From a virus, in the IMG/VR virus record IMGVR_UViG_3300037264_004563, positions 1 through 21,612 of that record: a DNA stretch of 21,612 nucleotides; one strand, given 5' to 3'. Positions 3,152 to 21,612 of this stretch are shown here, piece after piece. The notes under the pieces were generated by a model. It saw nothing but the letters and a program-made list of their open reading frames with translations. It searched no databases and was not told the DNA's origin. Every line of letters starts with the position of its first letter. Positions within the stretch are counted from its first letter, which is position 1. The position numbers and the translations under genes were made by a program.

Positions 3152-3934
3152 ATGAATACAGGCTGTGTGCCTCCATATTGCCACGGAACGGGCGGATTCT
3201 GCGGTTGTAATTGCCGTTGTTGTCCTCCTCCATGTTGCCCATGCATTATGGTTTATTTTGACTGCGGTGCCTTACGCAGTCCAGATAACCCAGCAGGCTG
3301 CGATCCCCCTACGCCTTTCGCAGAAACAGCATGGAGCAATCTTGAACTAGAAGTTCCAGCACCTGAATTACCTGATTTTAGTGATAAGCCAATTTTCTCA
3401 GCAGATGGAAATTTTACGCTGGGATGTGGTAGCGTTCCATGCTCCATACCATGCCGTACAGTCTGTGTAGAACTTATGTGCGGCGGCTTTGGCTTACCGT
3501 GTTGCTGCCTGGAACTATTGGGTGGTAAAATCTTTTCCGTAGGCAATGGTTATGTAACTGCCCCTACAACAATTGATATAGGGGGCGGATGCGGCATAGG
3601 AACCGTTTTAATTAACGGTTCCCCACCACCTGTTTTTGTCAACGACTGCGAAGAAATTATTGTCGAACTTATAACAGAAATATTTACAATAGACGCTGGT
3701 AGCTGCCCGTGCATATGCAAATGTACACAAGTTGACATTCAATGTACCCCATGCTTCACACCAATGGCAATGAGTAAGGCAAAACCATTCTGGAAGCGTA
3801 AGGTTGATCCACGCACTGGAAAAACTAAAATCAACCCAAATACAGGACAGCCTATCATTGTTGTTAGCAAGAAGGAACTAATGAAAAGAGTCCTTAAGAG
3901 GATTGAACAATCAAAGCGGAGAAGTAAGGATTAA
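3152..3934 (+). CDS. Extremely Cys-rich protein of unknown function
   Basis: 260 residues with about 28 cysteines (roughly 11%), clustered at the N-terminus (FCGCNCRCCPPPCCPC, about residues 17-32), in the middle (CGSVPCSIPC, PCCC) and near residues 181-202 (CPCICKC...QCTPC). Between the clusters are Pro/Gly-rich and beta-like segments such as GNGYVTAPTTIDIGGGCGIGTV. The C-terminal 50 residues are different: basic and helical, with KRKVDPRTGKTKINPNTGQP and a Lys/Arg-rich tail. No signal peptide is seen. It may be a disulfide- or metal-stabilised structural protein, but no family is recognised. Its 3' end overlaps the convergent helicase gene by 24 nt. Confidence 0.7.
   Translation: MNTGCVPPYCHGTGGFCGCNCRCCPPPCCPCIMVYFDCGALRSPDNPAGCDPPTPFAETAWSNLELEVPAPELPDFSDKPIFSADGNFTLGCGSVPCSIPCRTVCVELMCGGFGLPCCCLELLGGKIFSVGNGYVTAPTTIDIGGGCGIGTVLINGSPPPVFVNDCEEIIVELITEIFTIDAGSCPCICKCTQVDIQCTPCFTPMAMSKAKPFWKRKVDPRTGKTKINPNTGQPIIVVSKKELMKRVLKRIEQSKRRSKD
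3599..3622. repeat. Perfect 9-bp inverted repeat inside the Cys-rich gene
   Basis: GGAACCGTT at 3599-3607 pairs exactly with AACGGTTCC at 3614-3622 around a 6-nt loop. It lies in coding sequence for GTVLINGSP and has no adjoining T-tract. Its meaning is unknown. Confidence 0.4.
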
Positions 3935-5947
3935 TTTCTTAGCTTCGGCCAAAATTTCTTCAATCTTATCCTTCTTCAAGCCTGTTGTCTTCCTTACAAC
4001 ATCTGGATTATTGACTATATCATGCAAGTCTTTAATGCCAGCCTTATACAACTTGTTGGCTCTAACCTTGGCGATGTGAGGAAGTTGACACAAGAACAAC
4101 ATCGGTCCTTTAACGCCGTAGTTCATCCTCATCTGAAGCTCACGGAACCACTTCTGTCTATTCCACTTGCCCTTAAACCCATCAATTGCTTGTAACACTT
4201 GATTTAATCTTGGGAAATCGAATTGTAATGCCCTGCTCATAGATGCAAAAATTGGGTTCGTTACACCTGTCAATAACTGATGGTAAATGTAAGCCGCCTT
4301 AACTGCTGGCTCCCTAATTACATTCTGCCCAAATTGAGCATTAACCTTAGCTTGGAACATGCCCATGTCTGCCCGTTCAGCCTTGCTAACAATTCCCCAA
4401 CGGTGAGTGTCAATATTCCCCAGCGACATAGCAAGCTGTAAATCATCTTCTTCTTTATGATTATCAAACATGATTTCAAAATTCTTAGCTAAATCCGCTA
4501 CATCAAAAGGAGAGTAATAAAATAAACTGGAAATCTTGCCAAGAGAAGTAACAGTATAAATACCATCCTCTTCCCACACCGCCCCGCATTTCTTGAGTAA
4601 ATCAATAGTGCTATCAACCGTTGTGTCATCTAATTCATTTGCCTGAAAGTGTGCTAAACTTCTGTCATACCAGCCGTGTATATCTTCTTTGGTCTTAATC
4701 GTCTCTTGGTGGATTTCACTAACAAGGTGAAATGCCAATACCTTGTGATGACCGCCTTCTTGATCGAGCATCTGCGACAAAATCATCTGCGGCTTCCTGA
4801 CACGTTCCTTATGAAGATCATAAGTTCGTTCAGGTAGAAGAATATAGGCATCACCCACTGGATCATATAATGGTCGGCCAGCGCGACCAACCATCTGCAT
4901 AACGTCATAGGTAGCAACTTCATCTAAACCACGATGAACACCGAGAATAATTACACGACGCGCAGGCAGGTTCAAACCCCATGCTAAGGTGCTTGTCGCA
5001 ACAATAACTCGGAAGTCTTTATCAGTTTTGAATAGTTTCTCTAGTTTGGTACGGGTGGCTTTATCCAGGTCAGCATTATGAAATTCACTTTTCACACCGA
5101 TATTGGTTAAAGCCGTTTTCATCAAGTGGCCAGTCTTTTTTGTGTGAGCAAAAACCAGGAACTTATCATCTGGATAATACTCCACAATCTGTAATGCCAT
5201 ATTCACTTTTTGCTGTTCGTTATCATCATAAGTGTATTCGCCATCCCAATACTTCTCATAATGGACATTAAGTGGGCATGGTCGGAATGTAGATGATAAC
5301 AGGACCGTATCCTTGCTATTGAGAATGAAACTAACCCAATTAGCAATTTCGTCTACATTTGGCATCGTAGCTGACAGAAATACCATGCGGCAAGCTTTAT
5401 TAATTTCGCTGAACCTCATCAGGCCAGCTTCTAGGTGGTCGCCCCGCTTAGGTACAGTTAAAAGATGCACTTCATCAGCAACCAACGTGCCTACTTTCTT
5501 TAAGAATTCACTGCGTTCAGAATTTAAGTTTCTGACGCGGGAATTAAACATCTCGTAACTCATGATGATTAAATCCGCTGCATCTAACTCCTTCTTGCGC
5601 TCAGCGGTCAATCGGTAGTCACCTGTGCAAATTGATATTTTCAAACCGTTGAAATGATGGTCTTCATCGGTCCATTCATCTATCTTTTCTTGTGCCAAAG
5701 CACGCAAAGGAACAAGGTATAGACCTTTGCCGCCCCGCTTTCTAATCTCATAGGATAAGCACATTTCGGCCACAACGGTTTTGCCAGACGAAGTAGCTGT
5801 GGCAACAATTAGGTTGTTATCTTTGTCGTAATAATCGTAGACACGACTTTGGACAGGGTTGAATTGTTGAAATGACCAGTTGGCGTAAGGGAAAACAGAG
5901 CTTTTTAATAACTCACCACGATCACCGACTTTAACGATTGGGGGCAT
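3911..5947 (-). CDS. Ski2/Hel308-like superfamily 2 DEVH-box helicase
   Basis: 678 residues with a full SF2 motif set: Q-like FNPVQ (29-33), motif I ATSSGKT (51-57), motif II DEVH (158-161), motif III SATMPN (192-197), motif V ATSTLAWGLNLPARR and motif VI QMVGRAGRP (351-359). The spacing and the WGLNLPA and GRAGRP signatures are those of Ski2-like helicases (Hel308, Brr2/Mtr4 relatives). The C-terminal part includes a winged-helix/ratchet-like region. It ends in a helix-hairpin-helix segment (KVRANKLYKAGIKDLHDIV...TGLKKDKIEEILAEAKKLI), as in Hel308/PolQ-type enzymes. A role in unwinding forks or recombination intermediates is likely. AGGAG lies 5 nt before the ATG. A terminator hairpin ends only about 19 nt upstream of the start. 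Confidence 0.85.
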   Translation of the reverse strand: MPPIVKVGDRGELLKSSVFPYANWSFQQFNPVQSRVYDYYDKDNNLIVATATSSGKTVVAEMCLSYEIRKRGGKGLYLVPLRALAQEKIDEWTDEDHHFNGLKISICTGDYRLTAERKKELDAADLIIMSYEMFNSRVRNLNSERSEFLKKVGTLVADEVHLLTVPKRGDHLEAGLMRFSEINKACRMVFLSATMPNVDEIANWVSFILNSKDTVLLSSTFRPCPLNVHYEKYWDGEYTYDDNEQQKVNMALQIVEYYPDDKFLVFAHTKKTGHLMKTALTNIGVKSEFHNADLDKATRTKLEKLFKTDKDFRVIVATSTLAWGLNLPARRVIILGVHRGLDEVATYDVMQMVGRAGRPLYDPVGDAYILLPERTYDLHKERVRKPQMILSQMLDQEGGHHKVLAFHLVSEIHQETIKTKEDIHGWYDRSLAHFQANELDDTTVDSTIDLLKKCGAVWEEDGIYTVTSLGKISSLFYYSPFDVADLAKNFEIMFDNHKEEDDLQLAMSLGNIDTHRWGIVSKAERADMGMFQAKVNAQFGQNVIREPAVKAAYIYHQLLTGVTNPIFASMSRALQFDFPRLNQVLQAIDGFKGKWNRQKWFRELQMRMNYGVKGPMLFLCQLPHIAKVRANKLYKAGIKDLHDIVNNPDVVRKTTGLKKDKIEEILAEAKKLILTSPL

Positions 5948-7643: not shown

Positions 7644-8627
7644 TCACATAGAATAAATTTTGTCGTATACAGCGTCTTTGTAAGGGGTTGGATATAAGGA
7701 CTGTTTTAAGTTAAAATCTGGAAAGAACCTAAGCAACTCGCCAATCTGTTTATTAGTTATCATTCTCGCCTCTTTAAAAAATCCATCATCACAGCTAATA
7801 ACATTGTAATGCAACCTCCCCAAAAACCAATTTCTTATTTGTAACATTCCTGGGGAAAGATCACCCTGCAAAAAGCCCAAGAATTCAAAAACATCCTTAA
7901 CATCCAGCCAAGCCAGATTTTCTGGCGGTCGCTGTTTAGCTGTTTCTAAAAAGTGAATTAAAAGCCTAGCCCAATTTTTAGCAAAAAACGAATTTTTACA
8001 CAACGTATGTTCGCCAATCCTAAACTCAATAGCGCTCCTTTCTCCAGACCATAGATGGAAAGTATTAATACTGTTATACTTAGAAACACCTAATCCTTCA
8101 ATTAATTTGGTTGTGCTTATATGAGCCGTATCATCCAGCCAGTCCCAAAACCCTATAAACTGACAGAAACAATTGTTCTTTCGTCTATCAGGAACACTAT
8201 CAAAAAAGACTGGTTCGCATTTTATCCACCAGCGTAAAATATTACCTATCTCTTCTTCCATCAGATCATTAACATCTATGTGCAAATGAAACGAACAATC
8301 CTGATTAGCGGATATGAGCGTGTGATTTTGAAAAACATCAATCACTTGGCAAACCTTTTTCAGACCATGCCAGCCTTGTATAATGGGAGAACAAACCTCT
8401 ATGCCGCAGCTATTATCTGGCTTTAACACCCAATAACCATAGGTTTTATACCAATGCGTATGTCCCCAATCCCTTACTTCTACATATTCGCCAAGCGTTT
8501 CAGACACAAGATTTGCCACATAATGAATCCCCTTTGGCAACATGTCCCTTGGAGTAATGTTTATGCCATCAAATGAATTCACCTCAAGCTCTATTCCAAT
8601 GGGACGACAATACAAAAATTTCATCAT
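7644..8627 (-). CDS. Amidoligase-family (COOH-NH2 ligase) protein
   Basis: 327 residues. The conserved blocks of the Amidoligase_2/COOH-NH2 ligase family appear in order. They are IGIELEV (10-16), KPDNSCGIEVCSPIIQG (69-85), CSFHLHIDV (111-119), RRKNNCFCQ (148-156), KYNSINTFHL (183-192) and AIEFRIGEHTL (199-209). The acidic, His and Arg residues of these blocks form the ATP and metal site in this fold, which is related to glutamine synthetase and glutamate-cysteine ligase. The reaction would be ATP-dependent joining of a carboxylate to an amine; the substrate is unknown. Divergent from the 8691-9143 gene. The ribosome binding site is poor. Confidence 0.75.
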   Translation of the reverse strand: MMKFLYCRPIGIELEVNSFDGINITPRDMLPKGIHYVANLVSETLGEYVEVRDWGHTHWYKTYGYWVLKPDNSCGIEVCSPIIQGWHGLKKVCQVIDVFQNHTLISANQDCSFHLHIDVNDLMEEEIGNILRWWIKCEPVFFDSVPDRRKNNCFCQFIGFWDWLDDTAHISTTKLIEGLGVSKYNSINTFHLWSGERSAIEFRIGEHTLCKNSFFAKNWARLLIHFLETAKQRPPENLAWLDVKDVFEFLGFLQGDLSPGMLQIRNWFLGRLHYNVISCDDGFFKEARMITNKQIGELLRFFPDFNLKQSLYPTPYKDAVYDKIYSM

Positions 8628-9200: not shown

Positions 9201-10355
9201 TTATGCGTAATCACCTACTTCTTCCTTCGTATCAGTCTCTTCGTTCTCTTCATTCTCGCTTTGGCCAATAGCAGAGCCAAAAATTGCTATATAATCTCTT
9301 AACTCTTGTTCGTCTTTAGCATCAACCAAAGCAGGACATTTGTAAAGAGTATCAGCATCAATATCATTGCGTGCCTTAGATGCCCTGAACTTAATTTCAG
9401 CGCCACCAGCCCAAGGCTCCATGACCTGATAAGTGCCGTTCCCAGCCTTCTCAATTCGGGCAGACTGGATAAGTGCGGTTAACAAACCACTTAAAGGATT
9501 TACGCCATCTTTCCAAAAAAGTTGAACCCCTTCCGCTTCAAGAAAAGGTGCTGTGCAACGGTTCTTGATGTTTCTTACCTTCAAGTTAATGCCCATTGCT
9601 ATGTCGAGTTTCTTGTTTTCAATCTTTTTCTGGACGGCGGTGCATACTCTGAGACTAGCATAAAACTTCAAAGATTCACCACCACCCGCAGAAATTACTG
9701 GATTGCCATACATTACGCCAATCTTCAATCTTGTCTGATTAAGAACACATAATGTACAATTAGTTTTTTCTAGCAAAGTGTTTAGTTTTCTAAACTCTTT
9801 ACTGCAAATTCGTGCCCGAACACCTGGCTGATCCTTCTTTTCGGGATTCCAGTCTTTCTGTGTTTCTGCTAGTTCATCGCTGCTTGGAGAAGCAGACAAG
9901 CTATCATAGACAAACACCAATGGTGTATCGGGGTCTTTCTCACGAAGATTCCTAATCGTAGAGTAAATCTTATCGAAACAACCTTCCAAAGAATCTACGC
10001 CAGTCGAAGGATCGAAGACTAGAACTTTATCAAGGTCGATATGGCTTGTTTTAACAATCCATTCGTTATTAAGTGAGTTTTCACAATCAAGATAGACTGG
10101 AATACCACCAATGGCTTGACAGCCCCTTACGATGTTACAACCCCAATATGTTTTGCCAGAACCTTCGGCACCATACATTTCTGTAATACGGCCACCTGGA
10201 ATACCACCGCCCATAAATCTACCACTGCATGTCCAATTAAAAGCTAAATTGCCTGTATCTATAAAGTATTTCACTGGAGTTGTGTTACTTAATACCTCTG
10301 CCTTAGTAGCTTTCGCAAGGAAATTAAAAATATCATCATTCTTCTTTTTTGCCAT
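9201..10355 (-). CDS. recA: RecA recombinase
   Basis: 384 residues. It should bind single-stranded DNA and drive strand exchange for phage recombination and recombination-dependent replication. Walker A is GAEGSGKT (62-69), in the RecA context PGGRITEMYG. Walker B is LVFVYDSLS. The L1/L2 region, NQTRLKIGVMYGNPVISAGGGESLKFYASLRV, follows bacterial RecA closely. The C-terminal tail is acidic (ENEENEETDTKEE), as in RecA. I chose the ATG at 10355 because it gives the usual MAKKK start and has AAGGA 8 nt upstream. An ATG at 10391 with GAGGG 4 nt upstream would add 12 residues, so two starts are possible. The sequence is nearer bacterial RecA than T4 UvsX. Confidence 0.9.
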   Translation of the reverse strand: MAKKKNDDIFNFLAKATKAEVLSNTTPVKYFIDTGNLAFNWTCSGRFMGGGIPGGRITEMYGAEGSGKTYWGCNIVRGCQAIGGIPVYLDCENSLNNEWIVKTSHIDLDKVLVFDPSTGVDSLEGCFDKIYSTIRNLREKDPDTPLVFVYDSLSASPSSDELAETQKDWNPEKKDQPGVRARICSKEFRKLNTLLEKTNCTLCVLNQTRLKIGVMYGNPVISAGGGESLKFYASLRVCTAVQKKIENKKLDIAMGINLKVRNIKNRCTAPFLEAEGVQLFWKDGVNPLSGLLTALIQSARIEKAGNGTYQVMEPWAGGAEIKFRASKARNDIDADTLYKCPALVDAKDEQELRDYIAIFGSAIGQSENEENEETDTKEEVGDYA

Positions 10356-10409
10356 AAAAGTGTCCTTTTTGTTTAACCAATGGTTTTTCATTTGCCCTCA
10401 AAGTTTATA

Positions 10410-10464: not shown

Positions 10465-11496
10465 TTATTCAACCTTGTTCATTTCGTTGTCAATGCCGTC
10501 CAAGAAATCCTGTTCGGCTAAAGCGTCATCAGGAGTTGCTGGTGCTGAAACCACAGCCTTCGGTGCAGCCTTAGCTGCGGGCTTGGCCTTCTCAACAGCA
10601 ACCTGCGCGTCAAGATTTGCAGCCTCTGGCTTCCTGCGATATTTGCTCATATCGAAAGAAGTCTCATCGTCTGGAAGTGCGCCAGTGTACTTCTGTAACG
10701 CAATATCCATTTCCATTGTTGGCTTCAAAACGCGAAGCGAAGCCAAATCATGGAGAGTTGCTAGCCACGTTTCTATTTGTTCCTTGTCACCTAGCGGTGA
10801 TGGATCAAGGAATTTAGATTCGTCGTAGTATGGGAAATTACCAACTGGACGCAGTTTCTTGACGATCTTGAAGTCACGACCTGTTACTAAGTCGCACACA
10901 TCCCCAAGACCCTTCTCACCAGCCTTTGGATCGCCCACAATCGCTCGGACAATTCTTTCGTGGAGCGTCTTGCCGATAGATAGAATCTTCGGCCCTTCAC
11001 TCTTCTCAAGGTTGCCCTTCTTATCATAATAGCGAACCATTGCGTTGTAATAGTATCGCTCAATAGCCTTAACTCTACTGTATTCCGCATGAAGCAACTT
11101 GCCTTCTGCGCTTTCCTTACCAGCCGCTTCTACCTCGGCCCAAATACCGCGTGTATAAAGACAATGCGGGCATGGGTCTTTTGGATCAGTGTCTACCCAA
11201 AACTTCTTACCACCCTTGCCAGTTACTAACTCGCGTGGACAGTGGAAGTTTCGGCCACTCTTTTTACGATCTTTTTCATCTTTAATTAAACGGTGGGTGC
11301 GGGTTGCACAGTAGAACTTCTTGCCCTTAGCAGGCGGAAGAAGCCTAACAACAACGAAACCCTCTTTTTCGGGCATAATAACGAACTTCTCTAGGAAGCT
11401 CTTGTTCTGACCGCCAGCGGCGTCTTCTTCGCCACCGAAGCGCTCAGCTTCTTCAAACATTTCAGACATGTCTAGTGCATCATAGTTTTGAACCAT
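10465..11496 (-). CDS. Single-stranded DNA-binding protein, T4 gp32-like
   Basis: 343 residues. It should coat single-stranded DNA during replication and recombination. A short N-terminal segment is followed by an OB-fold core with aromatic and basic residues (GFVVVRLLPP, FYCATRTHRL, RYYYNAMVRYY). Zinc ligands in the gp32 arrangement are visible: H85-C86 in FHCPREL and C109-x2-C112 in DPCPHC, with H68 as another candidate. The region after residue 290 is an Ala/Pro/Lys-rich linker, and the protein ends in an acidic tail (DDALAEQDFLDGIDNE), the usual docking site for replication partners. GAGGAG lies 6 nt before the ATG. A terminator separates it from recA. Confidence 0.85.
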   Translation of the reverse strand: MVQNYDALDMSEMFEEAERFGGEEDAAGGQNKSFLEKFVIMPEKEGFVVVRLLPPAKGKKFYCATRTHRLIKDEKDRKKSGRNFHCPRELVTGKGGKKFWVDTDPKDPCPHCLYTRGIWAEVEAAGKESAEGKLLHAEYSRVKAIERYYYNAMVRYYDKKGNLEKSEGPKILSIGKTLHERIVRAIVGDPKAGEKGLGDVCDLVTGRDFKIVKKLRPVGNFPYYDESKFLDPSPLGDKEQIETWLATLHDLASLRVLKPTMEMDIALQKYTGALPDDETSFDMSKYRRKPEAANLDAQVAVEKAKPAAKAAPKAVVSAPATPDDALAEQDFLDGIDNEMNKVE

Positions 11497-15516: not shown

Positions 15517-16143
15517 TTATTTACCAAAAAGTTTTGCTCTGACTTTCTTAATCTCTTCCACGTTGAGATTATACTTCTTGTCCCGCTTGGCAATCAACTT
15601 GGGGTCAACGGAATCAGTTAGCCCAACCGACCACATAAGGATTGGCTTGCCCATAGGGACTTCGGTAGATACATCTGGCCATGTATGCCAGGTTTTACCC
15701 CACGAAGAATACAACGCTTTAAGCAATGTCTCTTCGCAAGACTTAGTTACATTGTGAATAGTAAGTAAACCATCATCAATTTCTTTTTTATGGGGATGCC
15801 ACAACTTCGCTTCATCCTGCGGAAGTTGGCCAAATCGCTTTTCGGTAATTACATACTCAACACCAATGAGTTTAGCATTCTTTTCGGGGGAATCATATAA
15901 AATACACTGGAATACACCATCGCCTACCGCTGTGCAGTAGTGGGTAACTTCCATTTGCAATTTTGGATCATCATAACCAAGATGAAAAGCACAAATTTGT
16001 GCGTGCTTTCGTTCTAATGGGTTCTTTGCCTTGATATCTTGATCGACACAAGGACATGGCGGGTCTTTTCGTTTTGGTGCCGCTTGTGCGCCCATAGTAA
16101 ATACTATGGTTGCACCAGTCGCAATTGCTTCACGTCTATTCAT
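15517..16143 (-). CDS. OBAP/DUF1264-family protein with N-terminal export signal
   Basis: 208 residues. The body matches the oil-body-associated protein family (DUF1264) known from plants, fungi and bacteria. Landmarks in order are THYCTAVGDGVFQCILYDS (67-85), LIGVEYVI (92-99), LPQDEAKLWHPHKKEIDDG (107-125), SSWGKTWHTW (146-155) and PMGKPILMWSVG (163-174). The biochemical role of this family is not settled. The N-terminus, MNRREAIATGATIVFTMGAQAAP, looks like a twin-arginine (NRRE) or Sec signal peptide, so the protein is probably exported. CPC follows at 30-32. Start chosen at 16143 for its AAGGGG Shine-Dalgarno; an ATG at 16197 lies within the upstream gene. Such a protein is unexpected in a phage replication operon. 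Confidence 0.75.
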   Translation of the reverse strand: MNRREAIATGATIVFTMGAQAAPKRKDPPCPCVDQDIKAKNPLERKHAQICAFHLGYDDPKLQMEVTHYCTAVGDGVFQCILYDSPEKNAKLIGVEYVITEKRFGQLPQDEAKLWHPHKKEIDDGLLTIHNVTKSCEETLLKALYSSWGKTWHTWPDVSTEVPMGKPILMWSVGLTDSVDPKLIAKRDKKYNLNVEEIKKVRAKLFGK

Positions 16144-16153
16144 TGCATTCCCC

Positions 16154-16669
16154 TTAAATATTGGCGGGCTTGATAATTTCATCCATCTTATCTTCATAAG
16201 TTACTTTGTCTTTATACAACCGTTCCAATTCTTTTCGCAAAGTATTACCACGGTTTTGTGCATTCTCATGGTTTTTATCCCACGCCCGTAAATGTTGCTG
16301 TAACATTCGCACAATATATTTCATTTCAATGGCTTTTACTTTCAGGGCTAACACTTTCTTGCGAGCATCAACAACCATAGGCTCAATCTTAGCCTTACCT
16401 TCGGTTAATTTATCACTGCCGCCTTCCGTATCTTTAATGGCGGCGAAAACCTTGGAGTAAGCCCGTTCGTATTCATCTTCTTCTCGCTCAACTTCCATTT
16501 CCATTTCTGCGTACTGTCTCTCAGCTTCGGCAAGTTTCGCACCGAAATAATCAATCCAGCCACCTTCGGTTTCTAGATATTCACTCAGCGTGCCTTCACT
16601 GAATTCCAGTTTCTTTGAATCGAGGACTACTTCTTGTCCATATACAGTTATTGTTCTTTTGTCTTCCAT
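16154..16669 (-). CDS. Coiled-coil protein, possible UvsY-like recombination mediator
   Basis: 171 residues, almost wholly helical. VVLDSKKLEFSEGTLSEYLETEGGWIDYFGAKLAEAERQ (14-52) echoes the T4 UvsY opening (IDSTKLQYEA..., then a helix with W and Y). The second half (KIEPMVVDARKKVLALKVKAIEMKYIVRMLQQHLRAWDK) echoes the UvsY region of charged and aromatic helices ending in a long amphipathic helix. UvsY helps load the UvsX recombinase on SSB-coated DNA. Here recA and a gp32-like SSB are encoded nearby, and the gene follows the replicative helicase. The match is from memory of the T4 sequence and is weak; any structural coiled coil remains possible. AGGA 7 nt upstream supports the start. Confidence 0.4.
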   Translation of the reverse strand: MEDKRTITVYGQEVVLDSKKLEFSEGTLSEYLETEGGWIDYFGAKLAEAERQYAEMEMEVEREEDEYERAYSKVFAAIKDTEGGSDKLTEGKAKIEPMVVDARKKVLALKVKAIEMKYIVRMLQQHLRAWDKNHENAQNRGNTLRKELERLYKDKVTYEDKMDEIIKPANI

Positions 16670-16706: not shown

Positions 16707-18272
16707 CTATCCCACCCTTTCTCCATCAGAAGGTTCAAATTTTCTCCCACTGACATTAATTTTGTCAATTGTTGTCTCTGTTCGGTCGCTGTCCTCATCC
16801 TGAATTTTGGTCATTTCTGCCATGTAAGTATGTTGACTAACTTCTTCTAATTTCAAAGTCTGATCCTTGAAATGATATTTGATCTTAAAATCAAAGCGAC
16901 TGCGACCGTCTCTTGTCTTTGCAATAAACCCACGCCCCACGCTCGCCTTACGTTCAGCTTTGGTCTGATTCAACGTGATGAAGAAATCGAAAATACGGTC
17001 CTGTTTGAAAGCATCTGCTGTATTGCTTTCATCCATAAATTCTTCAAGCGTCAACTCCGTAGCTGACTTGTTCGGATGCAAAGCAATTAAAGAACAATGC
17101 TTCTCTTCACCACCAAAACCACGAATCCCCTGCAATAAATTGAATCGAGCATCCCAGCTAGAAATATTCATCTGATGCTTCATATCGCCTGGGTAATCAT
17201 AAACCACCAGATCAGGCTTAAATCCAAGCATGACTGATTGTGCATAGTAAGCACGCACCACCGCCATGTCAGCCGTACCAGACGGGAATTGCTTGATAAT
17301 TAATCTGCGTTTGTCTTCATACCCGTCAACCGTATTCCTTAATGCCTGCCAGACTTCTTCTTTTCGTAACATCAACTGATGCTGACCTATATTGGTAAGC
17401 ATCGCATCAAAACGGCTAGCAATACGGTCTTGATCCATTTCGGTCGAAAGATAAAGTACCTTTTTGCCCCTGGCTATATTAAGACCAGAAACCCATGTTA
17501 AATACAGACTCTTACCGCCACCAGACTGCGCCATAACAGCGCCTAACTCGCCGCGCCTTAAACCACCGCCGACTAAAGCCAAATCCGCAGACCTAAAACC
17601 TACCGTAAACACTTCTTGTGCGGCTTCTTCGGCTGTAATTCTGGCATAACGATCTTCCATCGTCTCGAAGTAATTAAGACCCATATCGAAATTACGGTTA
17701 ACTAGGCGGGCTTCTTTATACAATTGGTCAATCTTATCCCAAGTCTCGTCCGACTCAGGATTCTTTCGCATTAACTCAAGCGACCTGGCAAACGCAGCTT
17801 TGGTGGCTTGGGTCTTAGCAAAAGTGGCAATACGATCTACAATAGCATCGGGAGAGTCTAGCGTTGGGAACATATTCCCAATGCCGCCCTTGGTGTAATA
17901 ATCGTATAGGAGATTGACTTCAGTTGTGTAGAGAAGTCTGATAGCTCGGTAGCTATCATCTTGATTTGGATATCGCTTTTTCAGGTAGTCATCCACCAAT
18001 TCCTTGACGAATATCTTGCTAGGCGGCTGTTTATATTCATCGAAATACTTAAACAACATCCTGCAAACATTCTGATGGACTTCACTCCTGAAATAAATAG
18101 GCTTGATTAACCCGACGCCTTGGCAAAGAAAAAATCTGTTACAGAGTAGCGTCCCCAACAACATTCTAAGAAAATCGTCGTTGAAAGGATATTTAGGTTC
18201 TTCTGTTGATTTGTTCGATTCGACCAAGGAAGCAAATGCTAACTGATTTTGTTCGTTGAGTTTATTTTCCAT
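16707..18272 (-). CDS. Replicative DNA helicase, DnaB/T4 gp41-like
   Basis: 521 residues. It should be the hexameric fork helicase. An N-terminal helical domain (1-190) precedes a RecA-like core with LALVGGGLRRGELGAVMAQSGGGKS; Walker A is AQSGGGKS at 248-255. Further motifs are VLYLSTEMDQDRIASRFDAML (272-292), Walker B LVVYDYPGD (355-363) and GRGFIAKTRDGRSRFDFKIKYHF (447-469) in the place of the arginine-finger/beta-hairpin region. The Gln-rich H3 motif of DnaB reads LIALHPNKSA here. Start chosen at 18272, which overlaps the stop of the VWA gene (TAATG) and has AAGG 7 nt upstream; an ATG at 18278 would add two residues. No primase is recognisable in the window. Confidence 0.85.
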   Translation of the reverse strand: MENKLNEQNQLAFASLVESNKSTEEPKYPFNDDFLRMLLGTLLCNRFFLCQGVGLIKPIYFRSEVHQNVCRMLFKYFDEYKQPPSKIFVKELVDDYLKKRYPNQDDSYRAIRLLYTTEVNLLYDYYTKGGIGNMFPTLDSPDAIVDRIATFAKTQATKAAFARSLELMRKNPESDETWDKIDQLYKEARLVNRNFDMGLNYFETMEDRYARITAEEAAQEVFTVGFRSADLALVGGGLRRGELGAVMAQSGGGKSLYLTWVSGLNIARGKKVLYLSTEMDQDRIASRFDAMLTNIGQHQLMLRKEEVWQALRNTVDGYEDKRRLIIKQFPSGTADMAVVRAYYAQSVMLGFKPDLVVYDYPGDMKHQMNISSWDARFNLLQGIRGFGGEEKHCSLIALHPNKSATELTLEEFMDESNTADAFKQDRIFDFFITLNQTKAERKASVGRGFIAKTRDGRSRFDFKIKYHFKDQTLKLEEVSQHTYMAEMTKIQDEDSDRTETTIDKINVSGRKFEPSDGERVG

Positions 18273-19294
18273 TACCATACCTTATTTAATAACAGACAGA
18301 GCATTAAGAGGCAGACTGTAACAGAAAATAAATAGGGTTGCAATCGTAATTTTTCTAACTTAGTTTTCTCTGAAACTAACTTTCTATTTTCTTTAATAAC
18401 CTTATCTAAATCATAAGCCAAAGCTGTAGAAGAATTTAAACTATAATATGCTCCCCTGCCATTGTCAGCAATTTGTTTCAAAATTTCTTCATCTAATTGC
18501 GAAGTCGCAATCTGATTATTTGCGTCAGTAATATAACGAACAAACCCACCCTTGCTGTCTCGCACAATCAAGGGTGCAGCTTTGTCACTACCAACGCCCA
18601 CAGTATAGATTTTGAAATTCTTGGAAGACAACTCCCGTGTTACTTGAAGTAACTTGATTCTGTTAGTTGCCAATGCTTCTTCTTTGCCGCCGTCAGAAAG
18701 TAATACTACAATATTCAGACCCGACTTGTCAATTTTATCTTTCTTGACGTAAACATCCTGAATTGCTTCCATCGCCCGCGTCAAATCCGTCCCCAATGTA
18801 GGTGCAGACCGCCAATCCATTTCATCCAACATTCCTAAGAATGATAGCTTCGTGGTAGTAAAAGGACAGAAATACGGGTTCACATCACCAGCAAACGGCA
18901 AAATAGAACATTCGTAAACACCGTCCAACGACTGATAAAACTGTCTGATTTGTTTCCTAGTTGCTTCCAAGCGGTTTGGTGGCACATCCTCCGCATATAC
19001 CATCGAACGCGATACGTCTACTACGAATATAATGCGTATATTGGAATATTCCTTGTCCTTCGCTTCAACATAAATATAAGGATCAGTAAGAGCCAGCATT
19101 GCCAAAGAAATAGCTAATAAATAGCCAGCATAAACACAGATTCGCCTGCGCCATGTAGGAATACTGCTGTAGGCAAGGAAATCCTTGTCCACTTTGTCAA
19201 ATTTAAGAAACGAATATGCTGCCCAAGCTACAGAAGCCAGCAAAGGCAGTATTAAAACAAATAGCAAAAATGCTAAAGGTCTATCGAAATGCAT
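18272..19294 (-). CDS. BatA/BatB-like membrane von Willebrand A protein
   Basis: 340 residues. Two hydrophobic segments at about 6-30 and 52-70 flank a basic stretch (TWRRRICV), then a large extracytoplasmic or periplasmic VWA domain follows, and a C-terminal TM segment lies at about 320-336. The metal-ion-dependent adhesion site is complete: D93-V-S95-R-S97, T169 in LGTDLTRA and D201 in LLSDGGK. NRLEATRKQI is the usual segment after the DxSxS loop in BatA/BatB. In bacteria Bat operons with a MoxR ATPase are tied to stress or envelope functions. The gene shares its stop with the start of the replicative helicase. TM ends and metal site suggest a protein-protein scaffold at the membrane. Confidence 0.85.
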   Translation of the reverse strand: MHFDRPLAFLLFVLILPLLASVAWAAYSFLKFDKVDKDFLAYSSIPTWRRRICVYAGYLLAISLAMLALTDPYIYVEAKDKEYSNIRIIFVVDVSRSMVYAEDVPPNRLEATRKQIRQFYQSLDGVYECSILPFAGDVNPYFCPFTTTKLSFLGMLDEMDWRSAPTLGTDLTRAMEAIQDVYVKKDKIDKSGLNIVVLLSDGGKEEALATNRIKLLQVTRELSSKNFKIYTVGVGSDKAAPLIVRDSKGGFVRYITDANNQIATSQLDEEILKQIADNGRGAYYSLNSSTALAYDLDKVIKENRKLVSEKTKLEKLRLQPYLFSVTVCLLMLCLLLNKVW

Positions 19295-19297
19295 GTT

Positions 19298-20098
19298 TTA
19301 GTTACCAGAAGATTTGCCGATGCCATATTTCTTACTATTAAGCATTTGTTTCTTGCGCTGTGGATTTCCCGCATTACCAACTAATTCATTTTGATTCTTA
19401 ATCAGAATCTCAATGTTGATAATCGTATTCATATCGTTGCTCCTACTGCGCAAAGCATACTTGTAGTAAGTTAATGTCTGATTGAACAATGCTGGCGCTG
19501 ATTCCTGATCCGCTACAAGTTCCAAAATACGGTAATATATCTCGCCCTTGAGATAATTGGTATGATAATCAAAATCTGTATCAAAACTATCCTTTAACTT
19601 CTCGCATTCCTTCCTTGCCTTTTCATACAAAGCAATAGCCTTATTAAAATTAATCAAGGTTAAAGGATGTAATTCTCTAGACCGTTGAGGTGGCGGTATT
19701 TGTTCTGGATTGTCTGGATTCTCTGGATCGGTAGCAGATGGCATAGGCTGGTCCTGCGGCACAGATGCTACCGCTCTTTCAATCTCAATAGCCTTGCGTA
19801 AATAATCTTCTGCTTCATTGAACCAGCAAGTAGCTCTCTTCAACGAAATGATCGGCGCAAGCCTTTCTTTATAAGTTGCTGGAAGGCTCTGCATTTCTTT
19901 CTCAATCTTGTCCAAATCATCAAGAGACTTCACGTTATTCACCATAACGCGAATCTTATTGTCTAAAACCTGTTCTTCATAGGTTTTGTTGATTTGCACG
20001 GTCAATTCATCATTCACGCCTTCTTCCATCTTGGAGAAATGCTGAATACTCACCAGACCAAACCCAATAAGGAGCAAACCAAATACTAATTTCTTCAT
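19298..20098 (-). CDS. BatC-like membrane-anchored TPR protein
   Basis: 266 residues. A single N-terminal hydrophobic segment (LVFGLLLIGFGLV, 4-16) may be a membrane anchor or uncleaved signal. It is followed by charged helices, an acidic Pro-rich linker (about 113-138, with PDNPEQIPPP) and TPR-like helices. The C-terminal unit QTLTYYKYALRSRSNDMNTIINIEILIKN has the tyrosine-alanine spacing and the N-x-x-x-NIE ending seen in the TPR of BatC proteins. It lies between the two VWA genes, 1 nt from the upstream VWA gene's stop codon and 3 nt from the next start, as in Bat operons. Confidence 0.65.
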   Translation of the reverse strand: MKKLVFGLLLIGFGLVSIQHFSKMEEGVNDELTVQINKTYEEQVLDNKIRVMVNNVKSLDDLDKIEKEMQSLPATYKERLAPIISLKRATCWFNEAEDYLRKAIEIERAVASVPQDQPMPSATDPENPDNPEQIPPPQRSRELHPLTLINFNKAIALYEKARKECEKLKDSFDTDFDYHTNYLKGEIYYRILELVADQESAPALFNQTLTYYKYALRSRSNDMNTIINIEILIKNQNELVGNAGNPQRKKQMLNSKKYGIGKSSGN

Positions 20099-20099
20099 A

Positions 20100-21155
20100 T
20101 TAAACCTCTGTAAAGTTAAGTTGTAAAGTTGTGTGAATCATAAATCCAGTTAATATCAACCATAATGCTACGCCGCCTAAGATATCAGAAAGAGAATGAT
20201 CCACACTTAGTTCTTTTACCACATATTCATTAGCTTGGCTTACCACAATTTCATTATAAATTTCTTCTAATTTTTTCTGGTCGAATTCTTTGATAACCTC
20301 GCCACGACCACCTGTGTCCTTGCAAAACTTAATCAAATCTTTGTCTAAATCGAAAACAGAAATAAAATAAACACGAATGCCAACCAGTTTACAGAAGTCT
20401 ATGATCTTAAAGGAAGACATTTTTCTTTGACTGCCAATCGCATTGAAAACACCATCTGTAAATATAATGATAGAACCGCCAGAGAACTTATCTTTACGCT
20501 CTACAACTGACTTTATAAAGTCGTCTATTTTAACCTTGTTTTCTTGACCATAGAATTTGAATTGTAACTTATACAACTCGTCCTGGTCCAGCACATCATT
20601 GTGCGAAAGAAGCATTTCTACTCCAGCCCATAAACCAGATTCAATATCCGTGCCTTTGGCCATAGGATCAAGACGGTAATCAATTCTTTTTAGCTTCTTC
20701 TGAACGAATTGGGGGTCGTCTGTCAACCCCGCGACCACAAAAGCATCATCGGAGAAAACAATCGCTCCAACCAAATCCTTGCTGCCATCCTTCCTTTTAC
20801 CAAGGAATTCAAACAGCTTATCATTTCCAGACAACACAGCAGCCAATTGATCCCCAATACCATTCTCTTTCTGGAAACTAATCATAGACCCACTACCATC
20901 ATTTACCAAGACATATTTATGGACTTGGTAAACCTTGCTAGTCTCCATCATTTTCCAGGTGATATTACATGCTGCCAGAGTAATAAAAAATACCCCACAT
21001 AGCATGAAATGCTGCCATTTGAGCCAAGTCTTGTCTGCAAACCCTTGTAGGTTTTGCAGACAAGCATGACGAAAATAGAACTTAACCCTGTTCTTAAAAT
21101 AAAAGTAAACAGGGAACAATAACAGTAATAACAGCAAGTATGGGTGTTGGATCAT
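20100..21155 (-). CDS. Second membrane von Willebrand A protein, Bat-like
   Basis: 351 residues with the same plan as its downstream neighbour but a diverged sequence. Hydrophobic segments lie at about 6-20 and 50-63, and a VWA domain with a complete metal site follows: D86-G-S88-G-S90, T169 in AKGTDIESGL and D234 in IFTDGV. A C-terminal TM segment lies at about 328-345. The DGSGS loop and AIVFSDDAFV resemble BatA. Its ATG overlaps the stop of the small TM gene by 4 nt (ATGA). The two VWA proteins probably form a complex with the TPR protein at the membrane, by analogy with bacterial Bat proteins. Confidence 0.85.
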   Translation of the reverse strand: MIQHPYLLLLLLLFPVYFYFKNRVKFYFRHACLQNLQGFADKTWLKWQHFMLCGVFFITLAACNITWKMMETSKVYQVHKYVLVNDGSGSMISFQKENGIGDQLAAVLSGNDKLFEFLGKRKDGSKDLVGAIVFSDDAFVVAGLTDDPQFVQKKLKRIDYRLDPMAKGTDIESGLWAGVEMLLSHNDVLDQDELYKLQFKFYGQENKVKIDDFIKSVVERKDKFSGGSIIIFTDGVFNAIGSQRKMSSFKIIDFCKLVGIRVYFISVFDLDKDLIKFCKDTGGRGEVIKEFDQKKLEEIYNEIVVSQANEYVVKELSVDHSLSDILGGVALWLILTGFMIHTTLQLNFTEV

Positions 21156-21544
21156 TTGTATCTGCGGTTTTTACAAAATTGCTTAACTAAATCCTTCAAA
21201 CTCTCATAATTGTAAACAGCTTCAGGCTGATAAAGCTTATCTAACTCATTAACCAAGTTCTGGAAGTTGACAGTACATTCACTGCGATTTACCACATACA
21301 GTGATACACCATAACCTTCCGTTAACAATTTATTTAAACATTTAGACACAATGACGTAATAATTCCTAGCTGTATCTGCTTCGCACGCTGCCAAACCTCT
21401 CCACAAACTGTCTTTGCCATCACTGGCATACCACCTGGAAACATCATGCTTTAGTGCAGATAAGCCCATAGCAATCAACATGGCCGCAACACCAAAACAG
21501 ATTGAGCTAGTACCGATTTTCAGGTAATAGTAAACCAACTTCAT
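21152..21544 (-). CDS. Small membrane protein of the Bat-like operon
   Basis: 130 residues starting MKLVYYYLKIGTSSICFGVAAMLIAMGLSALKHD, with one TM segment at about 9-29. A soluble part of about 95 residues follows; it contains three to four Cys and is mostly helical (ADTARNYYVIVSKCLNKLL). Its position before the first VWA gene matches the DUF4381-like or similar small TM proteins found in Bat operons, but sequence similarity is not clear. AAGGA lies 7 nt upstream of the chosen ATG at 21544. That ATG also overlaps the stop of the preceding gene as ATGA. Confidence 0.65.
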   Translation of the reverse strand: MKLVYYYLKIGTSSICFGVAAMLIAMGLSALKHDVSRWYASDGKDSLWRGLAACEADTARNYYVIVSKCLNKLLTEGYGVSLYVVNRSECTVNFQNLVNELDKLYQPEAVYNYESLKDLVKQFCKNRRYK

Positions 21545-21612
21545 CGGGTCGTCCTTCTTTGGAAACCCGACAGGTTGCAGTACAAGTAAATCCAAACCGT
21601 CGTAAGTGCGTG
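21542..21612 (-). CDS. C-terminal end of an upstream gene (partial)
   Basis: A minus-strand frame entering from the right edge encodes HALTTVWIYLYCNLSGFQRRTT plus Arg and stops at a TGA overlapping the next ATG (ATGA). Only 23 residues are visible, so no identity can be given. In Bat operons the gene in this position is often a DUF58 protein or a MoxR ATPase; that is a prediction to test with flanking sequence. Confidence 0.4.

Follow-up and report, generated by a model that had tools for sequence, protein, structure and literature searches.

Why would a phage keep what looks like a bacterial membrane operon immediately ahead of its replicative helicase gene? The DNA considered here (the window) is a 21.6-kb IMG/VR virus record, analysed over its whole length of 21,612 nucleotides. 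An initial annotation had described two VWA proteins, a TPR-like protein and a small membrane protein, laid out as in bacterial Bat operons and running into a DnaB-like helicase gene, and the open reading frames do lie where it had placed them, including those of 18272-21612. The genes that matter for the argument are the following:

21152..21612, minus strand: C-terminal part of protein X, with a TM segment and a predicted cytosolic helical domain; the frame is open to the window end.
20100..21155, minus strand: VWA1, 351 aa, with an N-terminal TM pair, a VWA domain with complete MIDAS and a C-terminal TM segment.
19298..20098, minus strand: TPR/BatC-like protein, 266 aa, with an N-terminal signal-anchor, an all-helical repeat-like predicted fold, a Pro-rich linker and a conserved GxGxSxGN tail.
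18272..19294, minus strand: VWA2, 340 aa, a Bat-family VWA membrane protein.
16707..18278, minus strand: DnaB-like replicative helicase (phrog_19, 2.7e-51), the downstream neighbour, outside the six-gene module described below.
16154..16669, minus strand: coiled-coil protein (phrog_2058, 2.9e-5), kept after DnaB in most contigs with the replication block.
10465-11496, minus strand: SSB-like protein (phrog_224, 3.6e-10), in the replication region.
9201-10391, minus strand: UvsX/RecA-like recombinase (phrog_97, 5.3e-57), in the replication region.

The genes of the module are tightly packed, as had been noted, with junctions of -4, +1 and +3 nt for X/VWA1, VWA1/TPR and TPR/VWA2, respectively. 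The TAATG reported at the VWA2 stop is also present, but it arises from the second Met of DnaB; the first ATG of the helicase gene overlaps the VWA2 stop by 7 nt (ATGGTAATG). What had been taken for a small TM protein (21152-21595) is instead the C-terminal tail of X, a protein of 461-507 aa in the relatives that is cut by the contig end, its start lying beyond the window's record. This tail is 57% identical to the C-terminus of X in one relative (L003:6733-8148).

The remainder of the operon can be read from related phages. A tblastn search led to the 595-kb uncultured phage LR756511 (W01), 68% identical to the window in VWA2 and 78% in DnaB, and IMG/VR scans added five more records (among them G001, 341 kb; G002, 187 kb; and G003, 436 kb). 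MoxR and DUF58 genes, which the annotation had suggested seeking further upstream, are found directly upstream in these relatives, and all six (W01 and G001 to G005) have the order MoxR-DUF58-X-VWA1-TPR-VWA2. The Bat-like genes are conserved in seven phage records, and in L142 a VWA2 fragment lies ahead of DnaB. That the carriers are phages is shown by the terminase and T4-type portal genes of LR756511 and G001; G003 and G002 have many further genes in common with W01. A bacterial chromosome, a concern raised at the outset, is ruled out by the terminase and portal genes and by the window being an IMG/VR virus record. The four genes of the window are probably the distal part of a six-gene phage Bat/MoxR-type envelope chaperone module.

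The MoxR gene, whose position is beyond the window end and known from the relatives, encodes a MoxR-type AAA+ ATPase of the kind found in Bat operons. In one relative (L003:4629-5699) it matches Pfam AAA_3 at 7.6e-39, and the MoxR profile matches the solved MoxR-like structure 2r44 at 8.3e-51; Walker A, Walker B and the arginine-finger region are invariant or nearly so. The DUF58 gene next to moxR (L003:5902-6732; PF01882, 3.8e-16) occurs in 6/6 relatives with the full module. The two are separated by a small extra ORF in G001 and G005 and by other ORFs in G002, with nothing between them in G004 or G003. An intein interrupts MoxR in G005 and G003 (L004:3615-5693 and L006:3686-5794), two otherwise divergent genomes, exactly after GGTGTGK / GGVGTGK, i.e., at Walker A. 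It carries a homing endonuclease (Hom_end_hint, 2.8e-19 in G005) and would have to be spliced out for an intact P-loop. An apparent intein-like insertion is also seen in the DnaB of L146 (contig 3300037264_003420, start of the locus), at the helicase's own Walker A.

How Bat-like are the two VWA proteins? By sequence, VWA2 is clearly Bat-like and VWA1 is more divergent. VWA2 matches Pfam VWA_2 (1.4e-11) and VWA (1.8e-10), the solved BatB domain 3ibs (1.8e-11) and 4jdu (1.9e-9), and NCBIfam BatB_Lepto at 3.5e-23, although this falls below the strict curated cut-off of that family; VWA1 matches VWA_2 at 1.4e-6, and the Pfam VWA matches of both proteins exceed the curated cut-off. The comparison with Bat proteins that had been proposed bears out the assignment: against a bacterial Bat VWA protein, hhalign gives a probability of 99.3 for VWA2 and 96.9 for VWA1. 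The MIDAS residues are invariant across five phages in both VWA2 (D93/S95/S97/T169/D201) and VWA1 (D86/S88/S90/T169/D234). Paired N-terminal hydrophobic segments and a C-terminal TM segment had been claimed for both proteins, and VWA2 has them all, two N-terminal and one C-terminal. In the VWA1 of the window only the C-terminal segment passes the threshold, the N-terminal pair falling below it, but all three are seen in several relatives, and the module has two BatA/BatB-type VWA proteins with an N-terminal TM pair, MIDAS and C-terminal TM.

The protein between the VWA genes does have the anchor claimed for it, and its AlphaFold model is all helical (pLDDT 81.5). Its structural matches are TPR-like, with Z scores within the range common for helical proteins, whereas in sequence there are weak TPR Pfam matches and a weak hhalign match to a bacterial TPR protein (probability 21); its TPR identity is thus suggested by predicted structure and is weak by sequence. 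The model of X, which is of lower confidence (pLDDT 65.5), has two alpha/beta domains and an Ig-like domain, which lies in the putative secreted part, followed by the TM segment and the C-terminal helical domain; the best structural match of the Ig-like domain is the TRAP-complex chain 8b6l_F (Z 9.0, rmsd 2.8 over 105 residues). X matches no Pfam family, and Foldseek found no match at E <= 0.001 for either X or the TPR-like protein. We also considered X as a BatD, for which sequence comparison gave no support: hhalign gave no match to the comparator proteins, including the one in the BatD position, and a PDB profile gave none.

Module protein identity declines roughly in step with DnaB identity. 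With dS near saturation the dN/dS values are rough, about 0.04-0.2 for the module genes where dS is estimable and 0.03-0.1 for DnaB, SSB and UvsX; by this measure the module is under purifying selection. Chance ORFs are ruled out by the Pfam and PDB matches, the synteny in seven records and dN/dS.

The claimed likeness to bacterial Bat operons needs some refinement. The bacterial comparators (L012/L013) have a single operon in which the genes for a secreted protein, a pair of TM-anchored VWA proteins and a TPR-like protein come after MoxR and DUF58, and the phage module shares MoxR, DUF58 and the two VWA genes with this plan. However, in the window and all relatives the TPR gene lies between the VWA genes (VWA1-TPR-VWA2, as opposed to BatA-BatB-BatC), the module yielded no BatE-like or classical BatD gene, and X is unrelated by sequence to the comparators. 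As far as gene content and order go, the module is Bat-like and not a canonical BatABCDE operon. Nor was a close bacterial homologue found. The phage MoxR is about 33–35% identical to the best bacterial-type sequences found; a GTDB scan for a bacterial donor with the VWA2 alignment gave no match, and one with MoxR gave only Arcicella (33%), whose contig shows no recognisable Bat operon around the gene. Most of the other MoxR matches from the phage collection are to short 'Bacteriophage sp.' records (two were checked, both titled UNVERIFIED) and to contigs labelled Listeria phage, which are probably bacterial contamination.

Other systems share the central pairing of MoxR with a partner. The group 2.2 jumbo phages (Iyer et al. 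2021, PMC7824862) encode MoxR and a VWA partner, but theirs is a two-gene system in which VWA is fused to a peptidase, and the passage on it mentions no DUF58, TPR or membrane VWA protein; VWA1 and VWA2 lack the N-terminal metallopeptidase, and a Pfam search found no peptidase domain in either. The large Bacillus thuringiensis phage 0305phi8-36 has a MoxR chaperonin with a linked partner (orf66/orf63), but only two subunits are described (PMC2147016). In the NorQ/NorD metal-insertion machine a MoxR AAA+ protein and a VWA partner likewise act on a membrane enzyme; in that case, however, the substrate is known (NO reductase), and the phage VWA proteins differ in being themselves membrane-anchored.

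What might such a module do? Two precedents guide the reading. The Bat-cluster VWA protein BB0173 of Borrelia has three TM helices and a periplasmic VWA domain (PMC5700661), and NorQD and similar MoxR-VWA machines exert force on a partner, maturing or remodelling membrane enzyme complexes (PMC13036017). Because of the analogy with these two, we read the phage module as an ATP-driven envelope chaperone. A cytosolic MoxR AAA+ ring, linked via DUF58, would spend ATP on an inner-membrane complex, in which VWA1 and VWA2 would present their metal-binding domains to the periplasm, the anchored TPR-like protein would scaffold the two, and X would span the membrane with a periplasmic part and its cytosolic helical domain. 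The machine may mature, remodel or protect a specific host envelope protein complex during genome replication. Complex formation, topology, envelope target and benefit to the phage are what we infer, and the chaperone role is proposed by analogy. It can be suggested, tentatively, that this transmembrane AAA+ machine of six genes branched off from bacterial Bat operons and was retained by a giant-phage lineage as a dedicated device for assembling or remodelling an envelope complex in the infected cell, mobile as one cassette.

Is the module then coupled to the helicase beside which it sits? The role that the initial annotation put first was a membrane scaffold for phage DNA replication, and a tight VWA2-DnaB junction is indeed present in all helicase-linked carriers, in a region that also holds the PolA, SSB and UvsX genes. 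However, the block PolA-p186-[Nudix]-DnaB-coiled-coil, in which Nudix is optional, occurs in >100 contigs, and most of these (nearly all) are without the module, which is found between Nudix and DnaB only in the window's clade; in twelve relatives, up to 527 kb, the entire record is free of AAA_3 matches above the cut-off. Across phages (L060-L204) the p186-DnaB gap is empty or holds unrelated cargo, including glycosyltransferase-like, IMPDH-like and thioredoxin-like genes (names given by eye from sequence), and is a variable cargo site within a conserved block. In G003, DnaB comes straight after Nudix, at 47.8-49.8 kb, and the module, at about 196-204 kb, is about 150 kb away. The VWA domains, moreover, are predicted to be periplasmic. 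A scaffold coupled to DnaB is therefore very improbable, and replication coupling is not supported: the association with replication genes is positional, and the tight junction is most readily explained by operon position. In a DnaB tree built with FastTree, with groupings read from topology alone, the helicase-linked carriers group with L146, a contig that begins within DnaB, in one clade; its sister, L144, is without the module in its 70-kb contig, and G003 is in another lineage. The single clade points to one insertion, and the simplest history suggested by these sequences is one insertion at the variable cargo site, with either a separate transfer or relocation and losses in the case of G003. 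The location hints at expression during replication, and not late with the virion genes.

That location also bears on virion assembly, in which the MoxR-VWA machine would help to assemble or membrane-dock phage structural proteins. Such a role has been proposed for the group 2.2 jumbo-phage MoxR-VWA pairs (PMC7824862) and is reported, in work cited there, for tail development in the archaeal virus ATV, and the pair in the Bt phage 0305phi8-36 is a further precedent (PMC2147016). These pairs are without the membrane Bat set, however, and the jumbo-phage VWA is fused to a metallopeptidase. The module is found beside replication genes or elsewhere and not among structural genes (that of LR756511 is at about 386-393 kb, versus 531-537 kb for portal and terminase), and many relatives do without it; virion assembly is distinctly unlikely. 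A patchy distribution, as cargo of a variable site, is what accessory functions typically show, and together with the predicted inner-membrane, periplasm-facing architecture would suit superinfection exclusion or counter-defence, with the VWA and TPR proteins blocking or detecting competing phages or countering membrane-based host defence. No module protein had a convincing match among the PADLOC defence models, where MoxR matched only generic AAA parts (E about 1e-6 or worse) and X gave one marginal match, and known exclusion proteins need less than a six-gene energised machine, which makes this reading unlikely. A redox or respiration auxiliary is a specific form of the envelope chaperone: the module would keep a host respiratory or metalloenzyme complex active in long infections, in an aerotolerance-like manner. 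Bat genes were found via a Bacteroides fragilis aerotolerance mutant (cited in PMC3557215), and NorQD inserts metal into a respiratory enzyme (PMC13036017). On the other hand, deletion of the Leptospira biflexa Bat genes gave no oxidative-stress phenotype, and Bat function, including a role in oxygen or oxidative stress, is unsettled even in bacteria (PMC3557215). This more specific form is somewhat doubtful.

MoxR-VWA pairs (PMC7824862) and a MoxR pair (PMC2147016) are already known in phages. In open-licence PMC text, where absence is not proof, no report of a full membrane Bat-like module in phages was found, and the main text of the huge-phage paper PMC7162821 mentions neither MoxR nor VWA; a complete membrane AAA+/VWA chaperone set in viruses has apparently not been described previously. 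Bat/MoxR operons are widespread in bacteria and their job is unsettled; a compact phage version under purifying selection narrows the likely core to MoxR, DUF58, two VWA proteins, the TPR-like protein and X. Its retention suggests that the module is useful within one infection, and it would point to the host envelope as something that giant phages control. If true, a dedicated envelope-remodelling machine would add a new class to the known means of host takeover by phages.

Several other features of these genomes may be recorded. Shine-Dalgarno-like motifs precede 15/22 genes of the window, which is weak evidence on the host; motifs this frequent are unusual for Bacteroidota. Next to the coiled-coil gene is a DUF1264 protein gene (15517-16197, minus strand; PF06884, 1.7e-52) with a twin-arginine-like N-terminus, odd for a phage replication region; G001, G005 and G002 keep it at this place, following that gene (73–85% identity), where it was not seen in LR756511. 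Conserved in related phages are an SF2 DEAD-box helicase (3911-5947, minus strand), 678 aa long and possibly with a helix-hairpin-helix at its C-terminus, and a putative amidoligase (7644-8627, minus strand; PF12224, 7.2e-10). At the left end (33-262), tandem repeats of 42 and 69 bp lie within overlapping low-complexity ORFs. Outside the Bat-like module, LR756511 has four VWA matches; it also has a second envelope-type cluster (L209, 313418-319171), in which a secreted VWA protein (PF00092, 3e-13) adjoins an OmpA-domain protein (PF00691, 1e-13) and another secreted protein.
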